NCBI GenBank assembly: GCA_019689585.1
Contig: JADGHG010000008.1
Location: 1-33,928 of the forward strand
DNA length: 33,928 nucleotides
Direction: 5' to 3'
Origin: Clostridia bacterium
GTDB lineage: Bacteria; Bacillota; Sulfobacillia; RBS10-35; JADGHG01
How positions within the stretch are numbered: the first letter of the stretch is position 1; every line of letters begins with the position of its first letter. Below, in pieces: positions 8,007 through 29,629 of this stretch. The position numbers and the translations under genes are program-made. Below the pieces are notes generated by a model. It searched no databases and was not told the DNA's origin. It worked only from the letters and a program-made list of their open reading frames with translations.

Positions 8007-8031
8007 CACCCCTCCACGCCTCTCATATACT
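8003..8031 (+). promoter_or_regulatory. veg promoter P1
   Basis: TTGACA (8003-8008), a 17-base spacer and TATACT (8026-8031). This is one of the best sigma-A promoters in the window. The -35 overlaps the end of ykuK. Confidence 0.8.
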
Positions 8032-8040
8032 GGTCGAATT

Positions 8041-8069
8041 TTGACATTCGACTATACGTTCGCTACCAT
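8041..8069 (+). promoter_or_regulatory. veg promoter P2
   Basis: TTGACA (8041-8046), a 17-base spacer and TACCAT (8064-8069). Start near 8076, about 27 bases before the veg ATG. It lies 38 bases downstream of P1, giving a tandem arrangement. In B. subtilis veg is also known for very strong sigma-A transcription. Confidence 0.75.
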
Positions 8070-8102
8070 AGTGACAGGCATGCGGCTGAAGGGGTGATGG
8101 CC

Positions 8103-28535: not shown

Positions 28536-28916
28536 GTGCCGCTCTCCGTCCAGCTCCACGCGCTCGTCCTCACGACGCTCACCGGCGTCGCGCTCGGCCT
28601 CCTCTGGGACGCGCAGGGGCTCCTGCGGCGCTTCCTCCGGCCAGAGGGGCGGATGCGCGACGTCTTCGACGGCGCCCTCGCGCTCGTCGCCGCGCTCGTC
28701 GTCGCCTCGGGCCTCTTCTTCGCGGGCTGGGGCGAGCTCCGGCTCTACGCCCTCTTCGGCGGCGGCCTGGGGCTTTGGGCCTACTTCTCGCTCGGGAGCC
28801 AGACGGTCGTGTGGGCGGGCGAGCGTGTCCTCCACCGGGCGGCGCGCGCCGTCGCGCGCGTCGGGGAGGGACTGCGCGCACGGCTTGCATGCGGCCGGGG
28901 CCGGCGCCAGAATTAG
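28536..28916 (+). CDS. yabQ: Spore cortex membrane protein YabQ
   Basis: YabQ-family membrane protein needed for spore cortex formation in B. subtilis. The 126-residue product has hydrophobic helices at about 5-25 (LHALVLTTLTGVALGLLWD), 45-65 (ALALVAALVVASGLFFAGW) and 68-92, with the family motif GLLWDAQGLLRRF between the first and second. The C-terminus is basic and ends in GRGRRQN. The GTG at 28536 lies six bases after yabP with no separate ribosome site, so coupling is likely. Confidence 0.9.
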   Translation: MPLSVQLHALVLTTLTGVALGLLWDAQGLLRRFLRPEGRMRDVFDGALALVAALVVASGLFFAGWGELRLYALFGGGLGLWAYFSLGSQTVVWAGERVLHRAARAVARVGEGLRARLACGRGRRQN

Positions 28917-28944
28917 GTCACCCTGTATCAAAGGCGTCTTCGAG

Positions 28945-28976
28945 TTGTCTACAGACTGTCCACAAACGGTGGACAA
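28945..28976. promoter_or_regulatory. Cluster of three DnaA-box-like sites
   Basis: TTGTCTACA (28945-28953), CTGTCCACA (28956-28964) and, on the minus strand, TTGTCCACC (plus 28968-28976). Each differs by one base from TTGTCCACA, the form of DnaA box used by high-GC bacteria. Starts are 11 and 12 bases apart, about one helix turn. The last two form the dyad TGTCCAC-N5-GTGGACA. The gap 28917-29013 is much richer in A and T than its surroundings. It lies 38 bases before the HTH gene. Another regulator using the dyad is the main alternative. Confidence 0.55.
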
Positions 28977-29013
28977 ACGAGGAGCCCGGCCGGGGTGAGG
29001 CGGTGGCGAGGCC

Positions 29014-29256
29014 GTGACGATCGAGATCCGGGGGGCGGAACGGCTCAGCTTCCGCGAGCGGCAGGTCGTCGCGCTCAAGGAGACGGGCCACTCGAACGAG
29101 GAGGTGGCGGCCCGCCTCGGCATCGGCCCGGGCACGGTGGCGACCCTCTTCCGCCGCGCCCGCGCGAAGGGGTACCAGGTCGTGATCGTCCTCGCGGGCG
29201 ACCCCCTCGCCGTCTTCCCCCCGACCGAGGAGGCGGGCGATGAGGCCGAAGGCTGA
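29014..29256 (+). CDS. Small helix-turn-helix protein (LuxR/sigma-70 region 4-like)
   Basis: An 80-residue protein made almost wholly of one helix-turn-helix: LSFRERQVVALKETGHSNEE, then VAARLGIGPGTVATLFRRAR. This resembles the C-terminal DNA-binding domain of LuxR/GerE proteins and sigma-70 region 4. There is no receiver or other sensor domain. The tail is acidic (PTEEAGDEAEG). The GTG start follows GAGG closely. The end overlaps the divIC start by 17 bases. B. subtilis has no gene here between yabQ and divIC. A cluster of DnaA-box-like sites lies just upstream. Target genes are unknown. Confidence 0.75.
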   Translation: MTIEIRGAERLSFRERQVVALKETGHSNEEVAARLGIGPGTVATLFRRARAKGYQVVIVLAGDPLAVFPPTEEAGDEAEG

Positions 29257-29629
29257 GGCGCGGCGGGGGAGCGAGATGCGAGCCTTCTTCCAGGCCGGCT
29301 ACCGGGCCGCCGGCGGCCGGCTGGCCGGCGGCCCGAGCGGCTTCCCTAGGCGCGTGCGGCGGCGGTGGCGCTGGCGGCGCACGCTCCTTGCGTTCGCGCT
29401 CGCCTACGCGGCCCTCGCGCTCGTGCGACAGGAAGTCGCGCTCCACCGCCTGGCGGCCGAGGCCGAGCGGTACGAGCTGCGCATCGAGGACGCCCGCGCC
29501 GAGGCGGACGCCTTGCGCGAGCGCCTCTCCGAGCTCGCCTCGCCGGCCGCCGTCGAGCGGGAGGCGCGCGGCATGGGTCTCACGAAGCCGGGCGAGATCG
29601 TCTTCGAACCCTTGTGGCCGAGCCGCTGA
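29240..29629 (+). CDS. divIC: Cell division protein DivIC (FtsB family)
   Basis: Bitopic division protein that partners with FtsL and DivIB at the septum. The 129-residue product has a strongly basic cytoplasmic part up to about residue 47 (RRVRRRWRWRR), one membrane helix (TLLAFALAYAALALV), then a coiled coil (about 65-100) and the family ending EREARGMGLTKPGEIVF. ATG 29240 is chosen because GAGGAGG (29227-29233) lies six bases upstream inside the previous gene; a second in-frame ATG at 29276 has a weaker GGGGGAG. The basic N-terminus is longer than needed for the family. Confidence 0.93.
   Translation: MRPKAEARRGSEMRAFFQAGYRAAGGRLAGGPSGFPRRVRRRWRWRRTLLAFALAYAALALVRQEVALHRLAAEAERYELRIEDARAEADALRERLSELASPAAVEREARGMGLTKPGEIVFEPLWPSR

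Follow-up and report, generated by a model that had tools for sequence, protein, structure and literature searches.

A conserved array of DnaA-box-like sites precedes a small HTH gene in many Bacillota and may place it under the control of replication

Across many families of Bacillota, the gene of a small helix-turn-helix (HTH) protein is preceded by an array of DnaA-box-like sites whose sequence, spacing and gene context are conserved, and three sites in the window (the whole analysed stretch of 33,928 nucleotides) are provisionally identified as a somewhat decayed copy of this array. As judged from sequence comparison, the array, which lies in the leader of the HTH gene, is probably a composite operator (probability about 0.6), at which DnaA, the protein that starts replication, and a second binder would both act. 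Because the same precisely spaced array recurs before this gene across many relatives, replication probably controls the small HTH regulator.

Gene neighbourhood and the small HTH protein

The array lies in the gene order yabP, yabQ, array, small HTH gene, divIC and S1-domain gene, with the following features in the window:

28536-28916, forward strand: yabQ, a spore cortex gene that immediately precedes the array
28909-28932, forward strand: tentative degenerate sigma-H-like promoter, AGAATTA-N11-ATCAAA, read by eye
28945-28953, forward strand: forward unit 0, TTGTCTACA, which differs from TTGTCCACA at one base and corresponds to anchored position 0 of the conserved array
28956-28964, forward strand: middle unit at +11, CTGTCCACA, kept in 127 anchored regions though unused for anchoring
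28968-28976, reverse strand: inverted unit at +23, TTGTCCACC, which is TTATCCACA in most relatives
29014-29256, forward strand: gene of the small HTH protein (80 aa, Sigma70_r4_2/GerE-like, with three helices between two strands), which is the target that the array conserves
29240-29629, forward strand: divIC, gene of a DivIC/FtsL-like septum protein

The start of divIC overlaps the HTH gene by 17 bp, which suggests that the two genes are co-transcribed. The HTH protein scores above the cut-offs of the Pfam profiles Sigma70_r4_2 and GerE, and its predicted fold (strand, three helices, strand; pLDDT 88.6) has a core of the NarL/GerE/sigma region 4 type. Profile match and predicted HTH fold thus place it among the GerE/LuxR-type or sigma region 4 HTH proteins, from which it differs in being a stand-alone protein of 80 aa with extra N- and C-terminal strands. 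It matches no NCBIfam model at the cut-off of the model, has no Foldseek match at E ≤ 0.001, and carries no curated name in the family libraries searched. Of 61 genomes (own and relatives), 57 have the gene at E ≤ 0.001, a few of them only as a weak HTH match. It also occurs widely in the phylum, where the named matches include Sulfobacillus, Moorella, Thermincola, Desulfofundulus and Fermentithermobacillaceae.

Three phased sites in the window

The preliminary description had reported three sites, each one mismatch from the high-GC DnaA box TTGTCCACA, with starts 11 and 12 bp apart, and they are found where it placed them. One-mismatch matches to TTGTCCACA occur four times in the window (0.86 expected) and 67 times in the entire draft genome of 1.86 Mb in 173 contigs, in which about 7e-5 triplets within 40 bp are expected by chance; the triplet of the window is the only one. 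The only other one-mismatch matches at most 40 bp apart are those of oriC, upstream of dnaA (C105:73-93), and the next closest pair (43 bp) lies between tatC and hpf. A chance origin of the array, which was also considered, is ruled out by the rarity of the triplet together with the box enrichment and the placement of the motif in 300 genomes described below.

The window triplet has the geometry of the family in a weaker sequence, as 14 of the 17 anchor positions match and none of its three boxes is perfect. Its surroundings had been described as the most conspicuous A+T-rich gap of the window, a description that holds only in part: positions 28917-28980 have 50% G+C against 74.3% for the window, but other stretches are richer in A+T, such as one of 65 bp near 8012 with 44.6% G+C. 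The region 8012-8086, located between a forward and a reverse ORF, ranks with the 65-bp stretches of highest A+T content in the window.

Conservation of the array across Bacillota

Upstream regions were read in 54 genomes (own and relatives), 80 named loci and 40 phylum-level genomes, many of the genomes compared being metagenome-derived drafts. The site cluster is conserved in relatives, and far beyond the close ones. Before HTH orthologues it has a forward box at 0, a second unit at +11 or +12 and an inverted box at +23. Exact TTRTNCACA occurs 1.86 times per 150 bp in 149 non-redundant upstream regions (0.016 expected), compared with 0.11 in the adjacent 150-bp control stretch; these figures describe the enrichment and are not strict probabilities, as the set still includes related lineages and its regions are not independent. 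At least one exact box is present in 84% of these regions and at least two in 64%, and the spacing of box pairs peaks at 23 bp (63 pairs) and 12 bp (59 pairs) for forward-inverted pairs, and at 11 bp for forward-forward (33 pairs) and inverted-inverted pairs (15 pairs). The array thus has two features expected of a DnaA-box cluster of a regulated promoter, namely at least two close TTRTNCACA-type boxes upstream of a gene, and conservation in place and geometry.

The strict motif TTGTNCACA-N14-TGTGGAYA has 40 matches in 38 of 300 Bacillota genomes, 39 of which lie directly upstream of an HTH orthologue when their coordinates are compared, while the same motif shifted by 1 bp, as a control of the register, has no match in the 300 genomes. 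The single match away from an HTH gene is located in G203 (contig C6:1183869-1183899). The array is missing in a few HTH-bearing genomes (e.g. L117, L170 and L241). Three phylum-level genomes (L213, L216 and L218) contain runs of several inverted boxes, 11-12 bp apart, in the leader of the HTH gene, which exceed the usual triplet.

The array belongs to the HTH gene rather than to divIC

The preliminary description had also proposed divIC as a target of the array, a proposal that the other loci contradict. At ten named loci neither yabQ nor divIC was found near the HTH gene, sequence being available there, and eight of them keep the box array (L097, L112, L115, L116, L127, L160, L161 and L167). 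Conversely, at 13 loci of genomes where no HTH gene, or none that is an orthologue, was found, neither an exact box nor a tandem array lies within 1.5 kb upstream of the S1-domain gene by which these loci were taken, a stretch that in most cases spans the yabQ-divIC gap. The array belongs to the HTH gene, not to divIC, because it is kept at loci without divIC and missing where the HTH gene is missing. The eight divIC-free loci that retain it, together with the array-less divIC loci, rule out divIC as the conserved target. Where divIC lies downstream, it may be controlled along with the HTH gene, being incidental to the conserved feature. Among open-licence full texts, a collection from which subscription papers are largely missing, none pairs "DnaA box" with divIC, and no paper combining yabQ, divIC and DnaA was found in this literature.

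The same loci bear on whether the cluster mainly titrates DnaA near the origin, as oriC-proximal clusters of Bacillus subtilis do, with the HTH gene being incidental. The expected origin proximity is borne out, as roughly 64-280 kb separate the HTH gene from dnaA in 16 relatives (14 with a single contig and two with two contigs; circular distances where needed). However, the array has a fixed place in the leader of one gene, is kept when this gene relocates and is missing when it is missing, and it comprises only about three boxes, which makes titration as its main role very improbable.

Comparison with the boxes at oriC

At the oriC of this genome, the stretch preceding dnaA contains TTGTCCACA, TTGTGCACA and TTATCCACA. 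The box type assumed in the preliminary description was therefore right: TTGTCCACA is a real box of this organism, present at its own oriC alongside TTATCCACA. The assembly has only four exact TTRTCCACA sites, two at oriC and two between tatC and hpf.

In the same genomes as the arrays, oriC contains a triad of a forward box and two inverted boxes at +0/-12/-24, whose spacing supports DnaA as the binder of the array boxes. The array shares with these triads a forward box followed downstream by inverted boxes at similar distances (about 12 and 24 bp in the triads), while it differs in having 23 instead of 24 bp and TTGT instead of TTAT in the forward boxes, and in preceding another gene. At position 3, the A:G ratio is 141:33 in the oriC boxes and 28:8 in the inverted boxes of the array, which is indistinguishable (p = 0.65), whereas it is 3:41 in the forward boxes (p = 2e-20 against oriC). 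The inverted boxes thus resemble ordinary DnaA boxes, in agreement with oriC in their own genomes, while the forward boxes differ at position 3 and bear an extra TTGT constraint.

Phased TTGTA units and a possible second binder

DnaA needs CACA. In the anchored profile, the forward units are constrained to TTGT, a unit at -11 reads TGTA without CACA at about 1 bit per base, and a weaker unit follows at -22; the preliminary description mentions neither this constraint nor the additional 11-bp units. Tandem TGTA-11-TGT units are present in 16 of the 24 regions without any exact DnaA box (0.18 expected), and family f133 has standard oriC boxes, yet only TTGTA units in the leader of its HTH gene. 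This persistence of TTGTA units without CACA where DnaA boxes are lost suggests a second binder besides DnaA, which would most simply be the HTH product. A TTGTA-array regulon was sought elsewhere and not found, nine of the ten matches being at the HTH gene, so the sequence specificity of the HTH protein gains no independent support from a second locus.

The array could instead be solely the operator of the HTH protein, with tandem autorepressor sites and a fortuitous likeness to DnaA boxes. It goes wherever the HTH gene goes and is missing where the gene is missing, it is nearly unique in each genome, its forward units share TTGT and not the TTAT of oriC, and some lineages retain TTGTA units alone. 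Such an operator would, however, leave unexplained the inverted box TTATCCACA with the same position-3 bias as the oriC boxes of its own genome, the runs of several inverted boxes in L213, L216 and L218, and the layout matching the oriC triad, and this reading is therefore considered unlikely, though the strongest competitor. DnaA might also bind alone, where strong boxes nucleate a filament that spreads over the degenerate 11-bp units and switches in response to DnaA-ATP. The unbroken 11/12-bp register and the mixed box quality fit the cooperative binding of B. subtilis DnaA (PMC4447404), but TTGTA units without CACA outlast the DnaA boxes in genomes with standard oriC boxes, and binding by DnaA alone is rather improbable.

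Promoter elements and the proposed operator

The pattern AGGAWWN-N11-RNNGAA is found just upstream of the array in 47 of the 127 anchored regions (1.3 expected), with a spacer of 11 in 43 of them, in agreement with the sigma-H elements RNAGGAWWW and RNNGAATWW separated by 11-12 bp (PMC8510167). In 18 regions, TATAAT is located exactly 37 bp before the forward box. The promoter is weak in this genome, where the tentative element at 28909-28932 has two mismatches to the pattern and no sigma-70 promoter was found in the window gap. Provided that the predicted promoters are used, the array is located at the likely promoter or shortly after it, a position that favours repression over activation.

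The array is probably transcribed, and its inverted repeat (TGTCCAC-AAACG-GTGGACA) could give a 7-bp stem of an RNA hairpin in the leader. The pairing breaks, however, because array position 4 is an A opposite a G in 50 of the 127 sequences, uncompensated, so that a hairpin is disfavoured and hardly credible.

For the composite operator, we infer from the site patterns that the inverted box, and probably also the CACA halves of the forward boxes, would be bound by DnaA, while the 11-bp-phased TTGTA units on the same helix face would be bound by a second protein, in the simplest case the HTH product, which would then autoregulate its gene. The level of DnaA, or its nucleotide state, would then influence transcription of the HTH gene, together with that of divIC where the two are co-transcribed, and the HTH protein may act as a regulator in turn. 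More tentatively, the HTH protein and DnaA could compete or co-assemble on the overlapping 11-bp-phased sites as an old Bacillota switch, through which the state of replication would set a sigma-H-transcribed regulator acting on division or sporulation.

Comparison with known DnaA-controlled promoters

DnaA is a known transcription factor, but to our knowledge conservation across great evolutionary distances is rare among its targets outside oriC. The DnaA-controlled promoters of B. subtilis (sda, ywlC, trmE-noc, yyzF-yydD and ywcI-sacT; PMC4447404) likewise lie outside oriC and have several DnaA boxes each, and sda also ties replication to sporulation, as the array may do. The array differs from these promoters in its target, a small HTH regulator, in its fixed 0/+11/-23 geometry and extra TTGTA units, and in its conservation across many Bacillota families. 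DnaA binding at the ftsL promoter of B. subtilis (Goranov 2005, cited in PMC8203912) offers another parallel, namely a DnaA site (predicted here) near a division gene of the FtsL/DivIC kind, while the conserved partner of the array is the HTH gene and divIC does not adjoin it in every lineage.

In many lineages the array adjoins a division gene and sits behind a predicted sporulation-type promoter, which makes it a concrete candidate for the coupling of replication to division or development outside B. subtilis and opens this HTH family to functional study.

A second DnaA-box cluster upstream of hpf

Between tatC and hpf, the gene of a ribosome hibernation factor, the genome contains a second cluster of DnaA boxes (G000 contig C34:12011-12070; about 2512-2572 in L005), which comprises TTGTCCACA, TTGTGAACA and TTATCCACA along with partial boxes. 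At least two exact boxes are present upstream of hpf in 8 of 30 genomes (own and seven relatives); the four genomes sampled from families f2 and f4 are all among these carriers.
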